Positions 5,388 to 59,245 of a stretch of DNA of 64,000 bases are shown here, piece by piece (position 1 is the stretch's first letter; each line of letters opens with the position of its first letter). Source of the DNA: Boletus sp. NGJ (lineage: Eukaryota; Basidiomycota; Agaricomycetes; Boletales; Boletaceae); NCBI GenBank assembly GCA_019096195.1, contig JAGTXK010000219.1, positions 682,001 to 746,000 on the forward strand, in the 5' to 3' direction. Under the pieces are notes generated by a model. The model did no database searches and was not told where the DNA came from. It was given only the letters and a program-made list of their open reading frames with translations. Both the position numbers and the translations under genes were made by a program.

Positions 5388-8300
5388 TTACCCCATATCC
5401 CCATCCTTTGCACCAGGATCTGGAGGGACCGGCGACGTCGATTGTGCGACAGTCATACCCAACGGGCGAAATGTCACTTTCATCCGTTTGGGTGGGTCGT
5501 CGCCCGGTTTCATGGCGGCGGCTCGACCACCGATCGGTTCGTCTCTTTTTTGGGTGCCGAGATCGGTGCGCTTGGGTTTGCTAGCGAGACGCTCCAGCAG
5601 TTCGTCCTCGTCGTCATTTTCTCTTCGCCGTTTTTCGGACAACCGTATGGGGGGTAATTGGGACTTGGAATTCGGCTTAATGGATGGCTCGCTTAACGAG
5701 GGTGAGGAAGGGCTCCCTTTCTGGCGCAGGAGCGATTCTAGAATGTTACCATCCTCTTCATGACTGCGTCGTCGAGGAATAGAGGACGGTCGAGAGATTT
5801 GGCGATGCGCTAGCCGTGGGCTTGGGGGTACATCTATGGAAGGAGAAAGTGTGGATGCGTTTTCCTTGGACGCAGTTTTTGATGGAGTAACAGAGAGGGA
5901 TGCCCCCGGAGGGGACGGGGGTCCGATTTCCTCGTCGTCCTCGTCCTCGTCGTCGCCATAATCCAGGAGAGACGGTAGAGGAGGTGTGCGAGGGAGGACA
6001 AGACCTTGAGGCCGTGGGAGTTTGGACGGAGCAATAGGGACGCGTCGTCTACGCTTGATCATGTTTATTGGGGAACCGGCGCGATTTGCAAGGGCCGATG
6101 AGCTAATGAATGGAAGTGCCGCATCACCCTCGTCGTCATCACCGTTGAAGTACTCTTCTTCTTCGGCGTCAACACTACGGTCTACACGACGCGAATCGGT
6201 GGAATTTCTGTGACAAATTAGCCTGCATGTTCTCTACAGCCCGCTCTGCACTTACCGGTTGTTCTTAGCCTCCTCCTTGGGTGGAGGCTCGACATTGATT
6301 TCCCAACGACGAATGAACGCAGAGAAGCGTGGCCCACCCAATCTTGTTTCGCTGAGCTTACGGACAGTATTTCCATGAACTGTCATACAGTGGGCAATCA
6401 GGTCTTTTATGTTCTCCTGCAACGGGTGGAGTAAGCTTGGATACGAAATAATGAAGACGTCCAGTTTACCCGTCGCATGTACTCAAAGAACTCTTGACAT
6501 GATGCACTCAGTAGGCTGTCCCGGTGTGACTCTTGCAGTGTGAGTTCCAGGATCGGCTTGAAAACATCAAGTTTCATAAGGTGAGCAAGAAAGTTCTTGT
6601 TGTTAATCTTAAGGCATATTCGGAAAAATCGGAACGCAGCTGTAATTAGGGCAGAGTCAAGACGTCAGATCGTAGAGACCCCCACAAGAGCCGGTACAAA
6701 CCCAGCCGAAGGTGCTTATCTCGAGCGCCAAGTAATGTAGCCACGCGAGCGGATATGTTTGAAGAAAGCATGTAGAAATGGCTTCGAAAAGCATGTTGTT
6801 GGGCGAAATTGCAAAGCAAGTCGGATAAATATAGGAAAAGATTAGTCTTCTCTCGCGAGAGCTTCAAAGCCGGATCTGGAATGATCACCTTTAATCCGCA
6901 TTCCTGATGTTCCCAAAATGTTTGCATACCTGTCTGCTTCCTGAAATCTGATATATCGCTGTAAGGTCTGAATAGGACCTCCAGGCAATTCTTGTAGAAA
7001 TAGTCTAGAAACCTCTCAGTTCCCGGATCATCTTTTGGGCGAGCCAAGATTTTCGCACTGATCGCCGCCTAAGTCGAAATGTCAGTAGCATATCTGTAGC
7101 TCTAGAGAGCACACTTACAGGTGTGGCACCAGGACCGCCAATGTTCTGCGAAACATCTAGCAGAGCTTTCAACGCGTCACCAATCTGACACTGCACTGCC
7201 ACGTCCCGACTCTGGACCATGACTCGACACATTAGTTTTAATAGTGTCTCTGCCTTGTCAGCTCCTAACCGACCTGCCTCTTTCTCTCTTTCAAGAGCAG
7301 CGGCCTGTTTGCATACGTGTCCACGAACGCCATGCAAGTCGTGATCAAGTAAGATAGCGATGATCTCGCCTGCAGGGCTGACCACACTCTTCGACGTCTC
7401 TTCCTTTTCAGGTAACGAAAAGGCCCATTGGACGGCGAACAAAATCCCTCGGTCGACCAGTGTCCGAAAGAGCGCCAATCGCGCAGGTAGCTGGACATTC
7501 TTGCCCATTGCGCAGAGCTGTTGAATGAGTGCGACAACCTCGCGACGGAATGCAATATCGCTTTCAGTGAGGTTGCCTGCAGGACCAAATGAGAACTGCA
7601 TGGCTGTCCGCCCTCCATGTCCATTTGGAATCTTCTGATGAGGTTTCCTCACTGGGCCCTTTGGTCCCCCCTCTTCATCTTCTTCGTCCTCCGTAGGACC
7701 AGCGAGCACCTCTTCACTCACATACAACCTGACGATGTCGTGGAGGAAGATAGGGTCATTTTGAATGTGATTGATGATATCTATTTGGTTGAAAATGATG
7801 CAAGAGTTCAAAACGTTGAATGTTGAATCATCGAGCGCGCGTGCAAGTACGACATCCTTGAGGAATTGGAGGCGGTAGGTATGGTGGACCTTCTTCCGGA
7901 TAAGGTCATCTCGTATTGGAATAGGTTGGTGGAAGTGTGTATTGACGTGGAGGAATTCACGATAGTTGGCCTTGTGTGTGGGAAACTCCGGGTCATCTAT
8001 GTCGCCAAAGTCAAGATCACAGAGAGTACGAGAAGAGCATAGCGTACACTCGAGCATTCCGACCACCCCAAAGAAGATATCGTCCTCGAGTATATGCTCG
8101 TAAATACCATGGTCGTTCATCATCACTACGATAATGTTAATGATACTAACGAAACAAATTTTGCGCTCACAAATGGTTTGCATTAGACTGCATAGGGCAT
8201 GCAGGTTGTCTAGGCTCTCGAGGTCTTCTGCCATGTTCAGGACATCGATAAGGGCCTTGATGTAGTGCTGTCACTCTCGTCAATATATGGCCCAAAAGCG

Positions 8301-9575
8301 AGGATATGTATGACGGCAAAACACGGCTCACCTCGCGCTGTATGTACTCGCATATCTTTTCCTTGACTGCTTGACCCCTCGAAAGGGTTTTGATCGCGCC
8401 CTCGATATCTTGTATATTGCCGAGCTGAGGAGTGGGCAGATGACCAGTGCGGATAATATTGACAGTGGTTGCAGAGTGCTCGCCACCTGGAGACGATGAG
8501 CCAATGCCCTGATCTTCTGGGTGAGATTCGGATGAAGATATGCATTGGTCAGCGAGATAAGAAAAACGGAACGAGGCGTGGGCTAAGGGCGAGACGGTAC
8601 TGACCTCCGGAATTCAAGTGACGTTGGACCTCTATAATGAAGTTCCACACCTCCGCGCATCCTTCGGCATCCTGGAAGCTCAGGGCGTAGTCGGCTCCGT
8701 TGGGTTCCGTCCATACTATCAAGCTCGCTATATGTCGTATGAGTGTCGAACAACACAGACAATAGGTCGTAAATCCCCACACAAAACGCATGGAGGTGTG
8801 TGCATACCTTGTTGCCGCTGATATACGTCATTGGAACGGATGGCAGTTGAGAGGATGATTTTATTGAAGTCCAGCTCGGAACGGGCGACGAGGTACGCTT
8901 GGTTGGCGTCGTCCAACTGGCCAGCGCAGTACGCGGTACCTTGATCAACCCACCGAGAACCAACGAGTTCGTAAACCTTTGAAGAAGGTGACAAGTGTCG
9001 GTCAGAGTAGACGCTTGATGAGGTCATGAAAATGACGGGGATGCAAATGAACAGGAGGGAGCGCAGTGATTTTGAATAAAAGGAATAATAATTCCTGGGG
9101 GAGTTGAACACGTTGCAGGCATGACGGCTCTGCCGTTATGAATATGATGCAAAGCGGGGGCCGATATGGGCCTAATGCCACGAAGGAGATGGGAAGGAGG
9201 AGAGAAGCTCACCTTGACACGTTTCAGCTCTAATGAAGACTCGGGCGACTGTTGCTGGGAGTCTTGCTGGGTGACGGCTGGGTCCACGGCCTCGACCATT
9301 GTGATGTGGTCATCCTTGACATTGTCACCAACGTGGTCGATGTCGCCGAAGATGTGGTCACGAGAGTGTTGGAGTGCCATATGAGCAGCAGGGTCGTCCA
9401 AGGCGGTGTCAGATTGCGCAAGACAGGCAAGCTCGAGCTCGAGGGCTACCTGGTGGTCGTGTGTGGGTAACACAGCGTGGTGGGAGGGTGATAAGAGGTC
9501 ATGGTCGAGGATGTCGGTGTCGGTGTCGTGATGGGACGTAAGAGAAGACGATGGCGTAGTGTCCACGCCGCTCAT
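5388..9575 (-). CDS. PSY2: Protein phosphatase 4 regulatory subunit 3 (Psy2/SMEK)
   Basis: Targeting subunit of the PP4 phosphatase, which in yeast dephosphorylates gamma-H2A and Rad53 during DNA damage recovery. Start at 9575 (MSGVDTTPSSSL). Exon 1 is an acidic, histidine-rich extension of about 120 residues ending in SSLELKRVK. It splices at 9213/8976 to the EVH1-like domain: VYELVGSRWVDQGTAYC, then IRSNDVYQRQQ, then SLIVWTEPNGADYALSF and AEGCAEVWNFIIEVQ. The armadillo-like core (about 8330-6640) has the SMEK blocks LDNLHALCSLMQTI, YREFLHVNTHFHQPI, YRLQFLKDVVLARALDD and ERFLDYFYKNCLEVLF. The last exon has an acidic stretch, then a basic, proline-rich tail with RRRRVPIAPSKLPRP, a probable nuclear signal. 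It has many short introns. It reads complete. Confidence 0.93.
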
Positions 9576-10156: not shown

Positions 10157-10916
10157 ATGACCAGGTCAACGACGATGCTCACTGCCGCTGGCATTGCCGT
10201 CGGGAGTCTCGTTGCCTACGCTGTGTACTTTGATTACAAGCGGAGAACGGATGCTACCTTCCGCAGACAACTTCGTACGCTTGTTTTCATTCCGGTGCCA
10301 GCGCAAGATTAAGTTGTGATCCAGGGAAGGAGAAAAAGCGCGTTGAAAAGAGTCAGACACCCTCAGAAGCATCAGCAAGCACCGGAGGTGTCGATCCAAA
10401 CGAGCTCGTTAGCGCTTTGGAGAAAATCCGGAGCGAACAAGTCCCTACTGACCACGACGAGAGGCACCAGTATTTTATGACGCAGGTTAACATGGGAGAG
10501 ACGATGAGTGTGAAAGGTGCGTCGAGTCGAGCTATCTAGAGAAGGTGGTGATGACTTACGCGTCAACAGGGCCTGCTTTCTATATGCCCGCCGCATTGTG
10601 CTTCTACCGCGCGATTCGGGTGTATCCTTCGCCACTTGAGTTGATCATGGTCTACGAAAAGAGTGTTTCCCAGCCCGTATTCCAGGTTGGTCATTGTTCT
10701 ATGTTGTGTTATTTCATATACTAACTGCCCGTGCCGCAGCTTGTAATGCAACTCGTCAACTTGGACGTGAGTTCACCTCCATTGTCTGAGGGGAAGGGAT
10801 CGGCTTCCATTCCTGACGAAGATGACGAGTTGAGCCCCTCTGGCCCACCCTCGGAAGCGTCTTCGCAGGAGTGGGACAAGGTCACAGACCCAGGCACCCA
10901 GACGCCTGCGATATGA
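10157..10916 (+). CDS. TOM20: Mitochondrial import receptor Tom20 (short isoform)
   Basis: Outer-membrane receptor of the TOM complex that binds presequences. Four exons: 10157-10274, 10325-10516, 10570-10685 and 10740-10916, giving 200 residues. The N-terminal anchor AAGIAVGSLVAYAVYFDY is followed by the basic RRTDATFRRQLRKEKKR. The receptor domain has FMTQVNMGE and the Tom20 signature GPAFYMPAALCFYRAIRVYPSP, with LELIMVYEKSVSQPVF. The C-terminus is acidic and serine/proline-rich, as in other fungal Tom20s. Inside the last exon, right after VNLD, is a consensus donor (10767, GTGAGT). If used, it skips the stop at 10914 and joins the SET module downstream in frame. The short form matches the usual Tom20 length. 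Confidence 0.92.
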
Positions 10917-11133
10917 CTATGAGTGATCTTACACACGATTTTGAACGTGCAGTCCACGCTGCTGTACGCTGTGTAGCCGCCATTGTTCATGTACCCCCTG
11001 ACCTTCGCTATCACCCCTATAATCTCTCCTTACCCTTTCTATCCGTTGTCGATGCGATGATCTGATACGAATGTTCTTTTGCTTTGGATGCGCTTGAATT
11101 ACCGCCTTCTGCTTGAAACGATCGTGTCTGTAG

Positions 11134-12577
11134 GTGAAGACTCGCGCTGAAGGTATGCCTTGCTAATTCAGAAGAAAAGGCATCTCAACTAAATAATGAG
11201 AAATAGGTTACTACAAATTTTTCCCCCGCAAAGAGATGAATGTTGCCATCCAAAATGTCGACGTTCCTCAGGAGGCTAATGGACAGTCTACCGGTGCAAC
11301 CATGCGCAAGAAAGTCGTGGTTTGCACCAAGGACTTCGAACCCGGTGACCTTATTTACATGGTAAGCATCAGCTCTTCCATTGCTCAGTCTTGATGTATT
11401 TTGCTTGTAAAACTCAAGGAGGAAGCCATCGCCACCGCTCTTGACGTAGATCTTCAAGGCAAGGGAACCCATTGCAGTCACTGCTTGCGTTCCATCGACG
11501 GGGGCACAGTCATCCGTCCTGATTTTGACCGCTTCAACTCTGTCTATTGCTCAAAGGATTGTCATATGAAGGCAAAGACCTACTCGCAAGGCATACTCTT
11601 CACGCTCGAGCCACCCTTACCCGAACATCTGGTCCCAGAAGCTGCCAACTTTTCCAAGGATGAGAGAGACCGTGCCCAAGCTGCGTTCGCGGAATACATC
11701 CAGAAGTGTGGCAAAGCCGCACCCGAGCTGATGGCACGTGTTATTGCACGCCAAGTCTCCGTTGAGACGACGCAAATGATAACTTCCATGGGACACTCAC
11801 CGTTAGCGAACGCCAACGTGGTGTTGACGGACGGTGGGGACTATACGTTCAATGACCACCTCGAGCGATTGCGCTACCTTGAAGTGGCTGCCTCTGAGGA
11901 GGGTTGCAAGTTGTTCAAAACCGTGCTGCAGCTTGCGATTCCAGGATTGGAGCACCTTGCGACCGAGGAACGGCTCTCGGTCTATCTTGGCATGATGGCG
12001 TACAACGCGTTCGGTGTCTGCTTTGAGAGCGGAAGGGATGATAAGGTGAAAATGCAGTCATCAGTTTGTGAACACGCACTTACGATATCGTTTTCACGAG
12101 TCTATAGCCCACACCAACGGCGAGGCCTGAAGATGTGGAGAGGACGCGAACGCCTTGTGGTACTCAAAAGCAGGTCGGAGCTGGGTTCTATTTCCTATCG
12201 TCCTACGTAGGTATTTCCACGCATCTCGTGTACGAAGTTGATGTCGACGCGGCACCCCTTGTACACAGCTCACCCACTCGTGCTACCCGTCCGCGCGGCC
12301 GTCCTTCAACGGCACATCCGAATTACATCTCATTGCCACTCGCGCTCTCAAGGCAGGAGACCTGGTCACCATCGCATATGTTGACGCCACTCAGCATGAT
12401 GATGAGAGCATACAGGATTGCCGTCGTCGGAGACGAATGGAACTGGCCCGAGGATGGGGATTCGCCTGTACATGCTCTCGGTGTGCCTTGGAAGCCGGCC
12501 CCGGCGATGAGGCAGACAGTGAGCCCAAAGACAAGTCGAAAGTGTCCGAAGTCGTGTCGAGGCTCGAGGGCGTATAG
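11134..12577 (+). CDS. SET-domain module, probably the 3' part of a Tom20-SET isoform
   Basis: Split-SET (SMYD/Set5-like) protein lysine methyltransferase fold. Exons: 11134-11152 (19-nt microexon), 11207-11361, 11419-12045, 12108-12206 and 12269-12577. The order is GYYKFFPRKEMNVAI, the SET-N strand KVVVCTKDFEPGDLIY, a zinc-binding insert with CSHC and YCSKDC, a helical middle, then LTHSCYPSARPSF (the NHSC motif as THSC), GDLVTIAYVD, and a post-SET cysteine group CTCSRC. If spliced from 10766 the frame is unbroken from the Tom20 start, giving 553 residues on the outer membrane. If transcribed alone, the first ATG is at 11236 and the protein would lack part of the N-terminal strand. I recall agaricomycete entries that join MAS20 and SET domains, but could not check this. 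Confidence 0.85.
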
Positions 12578-13254: not shown

Positions 13255-15107
<1,853 letters not shown>

Positions 15108-39114: not shown

Positions 39115-42100
39115 ATGCGTCTGCTCCGCTCGTTGGTTCTAGCGCTCTCCGTCCTCACATCCCATACACTAGCCCAGCATGCTAGGGATACCCCAAGCGT
39201 CAAGCACGAATACCAGGTGCGTGTCTCATAAGGTTTTGGTACCCCCTGATTCTAATCCACTCGCAGAGCGATGTAGCGCGTCTTCGCAAGATAGTCATCA
39301 ACAGGTGAGCATTCCTTTGCCTTCGTGCTGTGTTCAAGTCTCATTCCCTCTTCAGTCTTTACTCAAACAGGTGTCGGATCTTGATTTCTTCCTTGCCTAT
39401 TGGGTCTGATCCATGGCTTTAGAGATGTTTTCCTCCGAGAACTGATTTCCAATGCTAATGATGCTCTTGAGAAACTCCGCCTGACCGCTCTTGTGGAGAA
39501 AGACCTCTATGACGGTGTTTCCCCCTTGAACGTGACCATCAAGGCTATAAAGAATGAAGATGGTAGTGGGTACATTATCATTACTGGTACGCGTCCTTCC
39601 AGCCGCGTTCTAGGCGAAACTGATGGACATAGATACTGGCATCGGAATGAGTGCGGAGGAACTAACAAGCAACTTGGTACGCTGATGGTGGTGCTGACGG
39701 TTCATAGGCTCACGTTACACTCAGGGAACACTTGCGAAATCAGGGACTTCTGAGTTCCTCGAAAAAGCGGACACCATGGACACCACCAGTTCTGGCAACC
39801 TGATCGGTGCCTTTGGTGTCGGATTCTACAGCAGGTGCCTACATCTTGTTCTAATGGGATGTTCCAAGACCGAATAATTTGACCACCACTCCTAGCTTCC
39901 TTGTCGCAGATAAAGTCACTGTTGCTTCTATTCCTCCAAAATCCTCCAAGCATCCCAACCCCTCTCAGAGTATCTTTAGCTCCTCTGTCGATGAAGGCAG
40001 TTTTGAAGTATATCCTGATCCCCGCGGAAATACCCTCGGACACGGCACAGAGGTTACTCTTGAATTGAAGACTGACGCGAAACATTATCTGATCCCCTCG
40101 AACCTGATGAACCTGATGTATGTATGCTTTGCGACTGTGATGCACATCATTGCGCTGAAACTTGTGGAAGTAACCAACATTCAGTATTCTCTACTTCTTT
40201 CCCCATCTATCTTTGGAACGAAGTCGAGCAGGAAGTTCCTATAGAAGAAGAAGAAATACTCCAGGATGATCCTGAGCCAAAAGATGACGGGGAGGAAGCT
40301 GTGGTCGAGGAGGTGAAACAGTCCGACTCGGAGCCTGTTGCACCAAAGACAAAGAAGGTTAAGGTCGGCTTGTGGGAGCACATGAATTCTCAGCCTCCTC
40401 TTTGGATGCGGTAAGTTCTCTGCCATTCTGAGTGAAACGGGTTCGAGATTAAATTAACGAACATCAGGGATCCCAAAACTGTCACGGATGAGGAATATGG
40501 GTTGTTGTACCAAGCCACGTTCAAGGACTTTCAAAAGCCTTTAACATGGACTCACTTCGCTGGGGATTCAGGAGAAGGTGTCTCCTTCCGTGCACTCATT
40601 TACATTCCTTCTCGCTTGTAAGTCGTCAGCCCCTGAGCACGGAAACTTGATCATTGATACACTTAGATCTAATAATTTCTTCGACCAACCATTCGATGGA
40701 TCCACCAACGACGTCAAACTATTCGTGAAGCACGTATTCATTACTTCCGATCTCGGTGAATATGCTCTGCCAAAGTGGGCTAGCTGGGTCAAGGTCATAA
40801 TTGACGGTACGCACCTGAGTATCTCACGAACAATGTGACTGAATGTGTCGATTCGAGTCTAGCTGAGGATCTCCCTCTGAACGTGTCTCGCGAGACATTA
40901 CAATCCAGTGCATTCCTCAAACAGATCAAGAACCTCATTATTCGCCGCCTCCTTCAGCTCTTCGGAAAGACTGCCGAGGAAGATCCAGAGAAGTTCCACG
41001 AGATCACCACAATATACAACACAGTTCTCAAGCTTGGCGCAGCGGATGACAGCAAGAATCGCGAGAGAATCGCGGCTCTGACGCGTTACACGACCAACCA
41101 GAGAAATGATACCTCCCTCGATAATGTGCGTGCACCACGTTTGAAGATGAAGGTTGCAGGACTGATCCACACAAAACTCTGCAGTATGTTAGTAATAAGA
41201 AACAAGGCCAGAACCAGATATTTTACCTTGCTGACATGGGTAAACCTGCCGAGCATCTTGCGAGCAGTGTTTTCGTGGAGAAGCTCCATGCGAGGGGTTA
41301 TGAGGTCTTCCTGCTGAATGAGCCTTTGGACGAGATCTTGATACATAGTCTGCAGAGTTGGAAGTGAGTTATGCTATACATTTATGCGGACAAGACGTTG
41401 ACCATTCACAGGGGCATTCGATTCCAAGATGTCGCGAAGGCGGGTCTCAAGTTTGGGGATGGTAGGCATTAATTTTGATGTACAATTCAGTAATGGGTAA
41501 GATTCGCTACAGACTCCGAGGAAGAAGTGGACAGCATGGCAACTCTGATGGAGAAGTTTGCGCCTTTGCTCAACTGGCTGAAGGTCCAGGTTGGCGAGAA
41601 TGCGAGAGACGGTAAGAAATCATTTATCCCTGCGCTGAATGATCTACCCAAGTTGACCGCGAGACACAGTTGTTATCTCTGATAGGCTTGTGACGAGCCC
41701 ATGCGCGATCGTAGCGGACAGCTTTGGTTTCACAGCCAATGTTCAAAAGCTGATGAGCGCCACAAACAAAGGCACTAAGAATGATGCCATGCAAGAGATG
41801 ATGAAAAAGCAGAAAGTACTCGAGATTAACCCTCGGTCGCCTCTGATTGAGGGCTTGCTCCGCCGGGTCGAACAACTGGAGGCGGATGGTGAAGTGAGGG
41901 ATGAAGACCTTGAGGCCGAACTTCGGGAGGTTGCCGCGATTCTGATCGACGGAGCACTGGTTCGCTCTGGTTTTGACGTAGCCGACTCCAATCTGTAGGT
42001 TTCCTGCCGAGCTCATATTCGCTACTGACTGGCAAACGCGGTGCATCAGATTCCTGACTCGGGTGGATCGTGTCCTGAGACGGTCATTGGGTGTATCGGA

Positions 42101-56382: not shown

Positions 56383-57376
56383 ATGCATGCACTCGCGAAA
56401 AGTTTCAGACACAGTGCAAGTCGATCCAAGCTCACTTGTTCCACAGATAGCCATGTAGGCTGCAGTCTACGGCCTTACTCCTACCACGAGACCGCCGGAG
56501 TACATTGGCAGAGTCGCCGAGCGTAGGTCACCCTTTCTAACATACGCACTCGTACCCTGACCGTTCCCACCACCAGCTATTGGAGTCCTATGCAGTGGAT
56601 TCAAGAGAAATTTGCTCCGGCGCCAAAGAAAGCGTCTGAACGTGCAGTCAGGCACCAGGATGAACCGGATGCAACCCCTGCTCAGGATGAAGTATTCCAG
56701 GGAGCGCCCACGAGCTACGCAAGTGCAAAGGAGTCTATGGCCAAGAAAAAACAGGAAAAAGAAGTATTCAAACGGCCCAAGCAACCCGCGCATCAGGTAC
56801 ACCTTTCCTTCTATTCCTGAAAGGCACTTGTTCAGAAACTCCTTTGAATCTTAGCATAAATACTCCACAGCGAACTTCAAGATTTCACATCGAAAGCTGA
56901 ACATGCTTGGGAGGCAAATATCTGGGAAGCCCATCGACCATGCTATAATGCAGATGCAATTTAGTGAGAAGCGCGCTAGTGGCCGTATTAAGAGCATGCT
57001 GGCAACGGCGAAGCTTCACGCTAGCGTGTACAAAAAGATGGATCCTTCGAAGCTGATTGTCTGTGAGTGCATCCCCCTCCAATCCCGCTGTTGGCTTGCA
57101 TATTATCTGCATTTCGCTCACACTCGCATTTGTGTAGCCGAGGCATGGGTGACCAAAGGACCGAAGCAACTCAAACGTCTTGAGCCGCGCGGACGAGGGA
57201 AATTCGGTATACGCGTACATCCAGATTCACGGCTGAATGTGATTTTGCGGTCAGGTCAGACGTCTGAGCAGCTACAACAGGAGAAGCGTAAGATGCGATT
57301 GAAGAGGATAGTATCAGCTGGCCTTGTTCGTGAGGACGTTCCTCTTCGGAACCCTGCATCGATGTGGCAATGGTAG
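56383..57376 (+). CDS. MRPL22: Mitochondrial large-subunit ribosomal protein uL22m (Mrpl22)
   Basis: Protein of the mitoribosome large subunit that lines the exit tunnel. Four exons (56383-56522, 56577-56796, 56855-57062, 57138-57376) give 268 residues. The N-terminus MHALAKSFRHSASRSK is a likely mitochondrial presequence. Recognised blocks are YSTANFKISHRKLNMLGRQI, GKPIDHAIMQMQFSEKRAS, RIKSMLATAKLHA, KLIVSEAWVTKGP and PRGRGKFGIRVHP. The first exon is inferred from the GTAGGT donor at 56523 joining RRA to YWSPMQWIQEKFAP. The C-terminus extends past the core with a basic helix (EKRKMRLKRIV). Confidence 0.88.
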
Positions 57377-57446
57377 ACTAGAAAGAGATGCAGTACCCTA
57401 GTACTTCATGTTCCCTGCACTGGTCCCTAAATTTTACGTTTAATAA

Positions 57447-59245
57447 ATGTCACAGCCACTGGAGATTACACGTCGCTCTTCAGCAGAACCACCACACAAC
57501 GAAACGATGTTGCGGCGCTGGCGAACACTTTCCCTGCTCCTCGTGAGCTCCCTACTTCCTTCTTTTTCCTCGGCTGGCCCAGCATTCGAAAATACAGCCA
57601 TAGTGCGCACCATTGAACTCGACGGCTCTCTCGTGCACGTCAGTACCACTTACGCAGTCAAGGCACTCGAGCCAGGTCAAACTGTATACCACATCGCCCT
57701 TGGCAAGGATGAGAGGGAAAAGACGAGTTGGATAGAAGCCAAGGTCAAGGGCCAAACGCGACCACTCGAAATCGCTCACCTGGGCGAGCGTGATCTACCG
57801 TGCGTCGGCGTTCATACATGCGCCTTGTGGAGTTTGACGCCAGTCTGTTCCAAGTGATACTCACGAATTTGCTGTGATGTTACCGAGAAAGCTTGCTGTC
57901 AACGGAACGATCAATCTTGTTCTCGAGACAGTCCAGACGCACGCAACGCGTCCCTACCCGGCATATGCAGCGCAGGCAGACCCTCAACTTTTAAAATATA
58001 AAACAGACTTATTCGTCCTCAGCCCTTATACCACCCTCGTTCAGCGTACTAAAGTCAAGTGTGTCCGATTTGGCTATGTTCTCGTCGTGCAGAACTAAAC
58101 ATTTGCACAGGCCTTCCTCTCCGGACATTCCTTCTTATTCTACTCCTGAGGGGGTAGATGAATTCGTTAGAGATGGCTCAGTGACCAAGTCTGGAGCTAC
58201 CATCACATACGGACCTTATTACAACGTGGGTCCCTCTACAAGCGCGGAGTTCCTCTCCGAGTATCAACAACCCGTCACTGTGCACTACAATTACGATCAC
58301 CCCGTCCTCGAGGTCACGAAGCTTCAACGTTCAGCCGAAATTAGCCACTGGGGATCCAATCTTAATATCGAAGACAAGATTGACCTCCACAATGCTGGTC
58401 CTCTGTAAGTAGTACGCACGTCCTGTCATTCGCTGACCGTTGACTGTTGTGGAATATGTCTAGTCTCAAAGGACACTTTTCCCGTCTCGAGTACCAGAGT
58501 CAAAACTATTTTGGTCGCGTGTCTGCGCATATACTTAGCGGTCTGACCCTACACCTCCCTCCCGGCGTGACTAACGCGTACTTTTATGACTTGAATGGGA
58601 ATGTATCCACTTCCCATCTACGCCGAACCCCTTCTGTGCCCAAGGGTAGCAAGGCCATTCAACACAGCGTCCTTGAAATGCGCCCCAGGTATCCGCTGTT
58701 GGGTGGGTGGAACTATTCGTTCACCCTTGGGTTCGACACCCCACTCCAAGACTCTGTGAGCTGGGACGCGGCGAACCAGAGGCACATCGTTGGTGTTCCT
58801 GTCATGACGCACATCCCTGGATCGGTGGTGGACGAGGCCGAGATCCAGATTATTCTACCCGAAGGCGCGACGTAAGAGTTTCGATTTTGTACACGGTGAC
58901 GACAGGAGGCTGAATGAAAGTATCTCAGCGACATTGACGTTGTAACACCTTTCCCTGCGTTGTCGAGTGCGATCCTGACGCACGTGAGCTACCTTGACAC
59001 GACGGGGCGTCCAGCTGTTTCGTTGACATACAAGGATTTGACTGACAAGCACACCGCCATGATATATGTACGTCGAGCTGTGCAGAGTTTTGGATGCATT
59101 TTCTGACGCGAGGGCGTAGGTCTCGTACAAGGTGCCGTTGTCAGCGCACCTGAAGAAGCCGTTTGCGGTTGGAGCTGCGTTCATGTCGCTGTTTTTGATT
59201 GGACTAGCGGCTAGACGGGTGGATCTGAGACTGGACAAGGCGTAA
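57447..59245 (+). CDS. OST1: Oligosaccharyltransferase subunit Ost1 (ribophorin I)
   Basis: ER-lumenal subunit of the N-glycosylation complex. The first ATG is at 57447; an in-frame ATG at 57507 gives a direct signal peptide (MLRRWRTLSLLLVSSLL). Family blocks are FENTAIVRTIELDGSLVHV, VLETVQTHATRPYPA, EYQQPVTVHYNYDHPVLEVT, EISHWGSNLNIEDKIDLHNAG and LKGHFSRLEYQSQNY. Later come FYDLNGNVSTS, MRPRYPLLGGWNYSFTLGF and VSYLDTTGRPAVSLTYKDL. The protein ends with one membrane helix (VGAAFMSLFLIGLAA) and a short charged tail (RRVDLRLDKA), the expected topology. Short introns near 57800, 58050 and 58410 fit the conserved joins. A typical member. Confidence 0.93.

Follow-up and report, generated by a model that had tools for sequence, protein, structure and literature searches.

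Tom20 is a general entrance receptor for mitochondrial proteins, and in Boletus sp. NGJ the exons that encode it are followed, on the same strand and in a compatible frame, by exons encoding a SET domain. Does this locus therefore make one protein, two proteins from one gene, or the products of two neighbouring genes, and what would a SET module do when attached to an import receptor? A preliminary description of the 64,000-nucleotide stretch of contig JAGTXK010000219.1 that was analysed here (the window) proposed that the locus encodes both Tom20 and a Tom20-SET methyltransferase by alternative splicing. We have re-examined that proposal from the raw sequence, and we find that a locus with two alternative 3' ends remains the favoured reading, with a probability of about one half, and that the SET module may well be non-catalytic.

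Structure, domain content and copy number of the locus

Rebuilding the gene from the raw sequence reproduced every coordinate and exon join previously given, including the 19-nt microexon and the lengths of both products. The spliced model lies on the forward strand, starts at 10157, has a stop codon ending at 12577 and encodes 553 amino acids, and all eight of its introns (10275-10324, 10517-10569, 10686-10739, 10767-11133, 11153-11206, 11362-11418, 12046-12107 and 12207-12268) are GT-AG. Exon 1 (10157-10274) carries the start codon and the N-terminal part of Tom20, including a membrane anchor predicted from the family; Tom20 continues through exon 2 (10325-10516) and exon 3 (10570-10685), the latter encoding the receptor domain, and into exon 4, which ends with VNLD (10740-10766) at an internal, phase 0 donor (GTGAGT, 10767-10772). 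When this donor is used, the 367-nt intron that follows leads to the microexon (11134-11152; VKTRAE plus one nucleotide), which joins Tom20 to SET. The SET part begins in exon 6 (11207-11361), where KKV occupies the position of the GxG motif and an internal ATG lies at 11236, continues through exon 7 (11419-12045), which covers the insert region of the split SET domain, and exon 8 (12108-12206), which runs up to SSY, and finishes in exon 9 (12269-12577) with THSCYPSA, the tyrosine motif TIAYVD, the post-SET cysteines CTCSRC and the stop. When the donor is read through, the sequence that is otherwise the 5' end of the 367-nt intron becomes a tail of 49 codons plus a stop (10767-10916; TGA at 10914-10916), and the product is a Tom20 of 200 amino acids. 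At this stop the T content rises from 19% to 34%, and the T-rich stretch that follows (10917-11133) is a candidate 3' UTR and poly(A) region or, alternatively, may be a former intergenic or promoter region.

Both forms contain a full MAS20/Tom20 domain according to Pfam (cut-off 27 bits): the 553-residue form matches positions 1-132 of the 132-position profile (E 1.2e-38, 132.6 bits), and in the 200-residue form MAS20 is the sole Pfam domain (E 1.8e-39, 135.3 bits). The NCBIfam model TIGR00985 also matches both, at 5.8e-34 (fusion) and 8.6e-35 (short form), with bit scores (117 and 119.7, respectively) that do not reach its curated cut-off of 163.55. Among solved structures, the short form is closest to Tom20 (PDB 9i7s chain K, 2.5e-30) and the SET part to SMYD3 (2.4e-8). 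Like Tom20/MOM19, the gene encodes a full receptor domain and an N-terminal stretch; it differs in that splicing can add a C-terminal SET extension, and in its tail, for which nothing was matched among PDB chains at E values of up to 10.

A MAS20 profile search of the organism's own assembly (32.8 Mb, 141 contigs) returned three matches, all three of them exons of this gene. With the 553-residue protein as query, nine matches were found among the best candidates in the same genome, seven of them at the locus and two, weak and confined to SET, on other contigs. As this is the sole MAS20 locus found, it has to supply the Tom20 of this fungus, within the limits of the assembly and the search. Neither the SET exon nor Tom20 found a relative when scanned against viral contigs, and scans of prokaryote genome contigs, in which Tom20 and the C-terminal part of SET served as queries, were likewise empty, as expected for a fungal gene. 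A scan for bacterial promoters and terminators has no meaning at a fungal locus and was set aside.

Several neighbouring genes could also be recognized in the window. On the reverse strand, the divergent neighbour at 5388-9575 is a PP4 regulatory subunit 3 (PP4R3, E 1.8e-91 on exon 7008-8270), with a modelled start approximately 580 bp from that of Tom20. The downstream neighbour, at 13255-15034 on the forward strand, encodes a protein kinase that appears NDR-like by eye; its Pkinase match (5.5e-17) falls on exon 14492-14734. Further away, a forward-strand gene from 39115 to approximately 42300 begins with what looks by eye like a signal peptide, matches the Pfam family HSP90 on exon 40805-41314 (E 9.2e-23) and has a frame ending VVVAHDEL-stop; it looks like an ER-type, Grp94-like Hsp90. 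Fungi are generally described as lacking Grp94.

Splice signals, the coding-like tail and the competing gene models

Models of splice sites and codon usage were trained, unsupervised, on the one window, using 89 introns from 12 genes and leaving out the Tom20-SET locus. This training run restricted introns to at most 120 nt by construction (median 54 nt) and replaced an earlier, less strict run that had over-called introns (588 in three giant genes) and was discarded. One of its models, at 56590-58875, looks by eye like two unrelated genes joined, and thus the gene finder does make errors. Measured against the training set, the internal donor at 10767 stands at the 62nd percentile of the 89 donors. 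Nine GT sites occur in the interval 10740-10916, and it is the only good one among them, none of the other eight rising above the 2nd percentile. The acceptor signal at 11133 reaches the 20th percentile, and its best branch site the 4th. Weak points also occur in other introns of the gene, namely at donors 10275 (8th percentile) and 12046 (4th) and at acceptors 11206 and 11418 (9th).

The match of frame across the nine exons had been taken as direct evidence for the fusion, a claim that now appears too strong. The real 367-nt intron holds two in-frame microexon paths, of which the proposed one scores first; however, 98.15% of 2000 dinucleotide shuffles of that intron offered at least one such path, and in 7.8% a path scored as well as the real one or better. 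Since in-frame microexons are so common in shuffled sequence, the argument from frame match is weak by itself. Better evidence comes from the splice signals described above, with one good donor and a weak acceptor and branch site, and from the tail downstream of that donor. The codon-usage score of the tail (5.55) falls at the 35th percentile of 224 coding windows, within the coding range. Scores as high occur in 1.8% of off-frame windows (n = 448), 3.3% of intergenic windows (n = 2490) and 8.7% of those intergenic windows that are open (n = 495). When the whole intron was shuffled (n = 5000), a frame open for at least 49 codons with the tail's score or better arose in 0.1% of cases; when only the tail was shuffled (n = 5000), 0.34% matched it in openness and score, or 1.4% of those that stayed open. 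Similarly, among 92 strong intergenic GT sites, 16 were followed by a frame open as far as the tail and one of these also reached its score. When the other intron donors (n = 89) were treated as unspliced and the frame was followed onwards, the corresponding numbers were 12 and three, although such frames can run on into the next exon. The tail specific to the Tom20-only form thus looks coding, judged by its codon usage and its open frame.

Whether the Tom20 and SET exons form one gene is a separate issue, and coding statistics do not separate a fused gene from two genes in tandem: the fusion scores 18.4, against 2.0 for Tom20 plus 16.4 for a SET gene starting at ATG 11236, which is a tie. If there were two genes, Tom20 would stop at 10916, the SET gene would start at about ATG 11236 from a promoter within 10917-11206, and the splice path between them would reflect chance or rare read-through. 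In keeping with this, the finder limited to introns of at most 120 nt called a gene at 11236-12210 alone and missed Tom20, and in-frame microexons are, as described above, frequent by chance. There is also a pyrimidine-rich 40-mer (0.80) in 10917-11133, but the same value was reached ahead of two of 12 start codons and beyond two of 12 stops, and the 40-mer therefore does not discriminate. Against separate genes stand the good, in-phase donor at the edge of the Tom20 domain and the frame that is open upstream of ATG 11236. Moreover, the balance tips towards a real fusion because a published group of fungal SET proteins, Group 25, carries MAS20 upstream of SET, as reported in the accessible text of PMC9692433.

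That published architecture would equally suit a locus making the fusion alone, in which the tail, its stop and the T-rich stretch are the remains of an old Tom20 end and spacer from before the merger of two neighbouring genes, and now form a constitutive intron. The layout of the 367-nt intron, in which a spacer comes after the end of a gene, agrees with such a history, and the finder did join Tom20 to SET once introns of up to 600 nt were allowed; in that run four of the 94 other introns were at least 367 nt long, although these may be false gene merges. Yet an old relic would not be expected to stay open and to keep the codon usage of coding sequence, and the acceptor and branch signals of the supposed constitutive intron are weak; we consider this explanation unlikely, and that of tandem genes less credible still. 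The joined model of the finder also suggested that the fusion might use a donor at 10881 rather than 10767, so that 38 tail residues would be kept as a linker in a fusion of 591 amino acids and any short form would be a matter of intron retention. This path is in phase and open and raises the total score to 19.3 from 18.4, but the gain is due to the coding bias of the tail, which the short form explains too. The donor itself (GTCACA) is at the 1st percentile, and the model that uses it begins at 10175 and has a single intron, 12064-12268, in place of the final two, which makes it unreliable in detail. We therefore regard use of donor 10881 as very improbable.

A divergent SET module and its known relatives

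The SET domain had been described as complete. In length this holds, as the Pfam match spans positions 3-104 of the 105-position profile (E 2.2e-5, 25.2 bits against a cut-off of 22.4), but the motifs that contact SAM are replaced. Three conserved SET motifs are recognized in the accessible text of PMC6054832: GxG, NHS/CxxPN and ELxF/YDY with the catalytic tyrosine. At the GxG position the Tom20-SET protein has KKV, whether aligned to SMYD3 or to a SET paralogue from its own genome (L020, E 0.11), these N-terminal alignments not being significant on their own. At the NHSCxPN position it has THSCYPSA, where SMYD3 has NHSCDPNC. The catalytic tyrosine and the post-SET cysteines are kept (TIAYVD and CTCSRC, compared with TICYLD and CDCFRC in SMYD3). 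Within the same genome, the Set5-like paralogue L016 has both GKG and NHACTPN, and L020 has GRS at the GxG position and keeps NHS (NHSA). At what we take to be the MYND zinc-ligand positions, the Tom20-SET protein shows just C-x2-C and C-x3-C; both its exon 7 and L020 show this pair of motifs with no obvious second MYND zinc site. Thus, the module resembles SMYD3 and the fungal Set5-type proteins in its split SET domain, cysteine-bearing insert, tyrosine motif and post-SET cysteines, and differs from them in the replacement of GxG and NHSCxPN, in the second MYND ligand set, which was not seen here, and in its fusion to Tom20.

Because two motifs are replaced, methyltransferase activity of this module is doubtful, and we reject the simple equation of a full-length SET domain with an active enzyme. 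Ordinary SAM binding has probably been lost, and the module is likely to be non-catalytic or to act in an atypical way. It should be noted, as a counterweight, that SAM contacts are not all conserved even across the 23 solved enzymes considered in the accessible text of PMC6054832. Of the Tom20-SET methyltransferase originally proposed, then, the fusion finds support in the published MAS20-SET group, and it is the enzymatic part that has become questionable.

The combination of the two domains is not a new architecture. A survey published in 2022, which covered 229 species of fungi and built its trees on 20 representatives, described Group 25 as having MAS20 upstream of SET, found none in Ascomycota and noted that its function is unstudied (PMC9692433, accessible text). 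We assume that this survey rests on predicted proteins. The spliced model matches Group 25 in that a MAS20 domain precedes SET within a single protein, which makes the gene a candidate member; the accessible description of the group makes no mention of alternative splicing, a Tom20-only product or motif loss (PMC9692433). Thus, the kind of fusion is known, and the variant in which one locus yields both Tom20 and Tom20-SET was not found in print among the literature matches listed, which take in subscription papers and preprints only to a small extent. 

In other mushrooms, annotated MAS20-SET proteins seem to have the linker encoded by the microexon, and the THSC motif as well. Partial parallels exist elsewhere. 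For example, in the insect Su(var)3-9/eIF2gamma locus the gene for a SET protein is likewise merged with a functionally unrelated gene, although the partners there are an H3K9 methyltransferase and a translation factor, and the Su(var)3-9-specific exon sits in an eIF2gamma intron, whereas here a terminal tail is followed by the SET exons (PMC1435931, accessible text). Furthermore, fungal SKI7/HBS1 shows how one gene can give two functionally distinct proteins via splicing, but does so, according to the accessible text of PMC3597508, through a choice of 3' splice sites (in basidiomycetes, by skipping an exon) rather than an alternative terminal exon, and the proteins are unrelated to those discussed here.

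A proposed Tom20 locus with two alternative 3' ends

Taking the evidence together, we favour, at roughly even odds, a single Tom20 locus with two alternative 3' ends, one of which would bring to the surface of mitochondria a SET module that is divergent and possibly non-catalytic. Both reading frames are open in the genomic DNA; the two mRNAs would arise as follows. If donor 10767 is left unused and the transcript ends at a putative intronic poly(A) site in the T-rich stretch beyond 10916, an ordinary Tom20 of 200 residues would be made. If the donor is instead spliced to the microexon and then to 11207, the Tom20 anchor and receptor domain would be extended by a SMYD/Set5-like SET module of approximately 400 residues, which, from the expected topology of the anchor, would be exposed to the cytosol at the mitochondrial outer membrane. 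The pairing of a good donor with a weak branch site and acceptor suggests that the balance between these two ends could be tunable. Given the loss of two SAM-contact motifs, the module is more likely to be a binding or regulatory one, or a very divergent enzyme, than a standard methyltransferase. More tentatively, and as a somewhat unlikely extension, the contest between intronic 3'-end formation and splicing may decide whether the import receptor carries a pseudo-methyltransferase SET domain, the motifs of which would have been lost when the module was repurposed for binding or gating within the TOM receptor. On this extended reading, fungi with this gene would possess a second Tom20 controlled by splicing.

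If the favoured reading is correct, it would provide a setting for Group 25, and the motif losses predict that methylation by this protein would be absent or atypical. A SET-bearing import receptor made in this way would connect mRNA processing with the surface of mitochondria.
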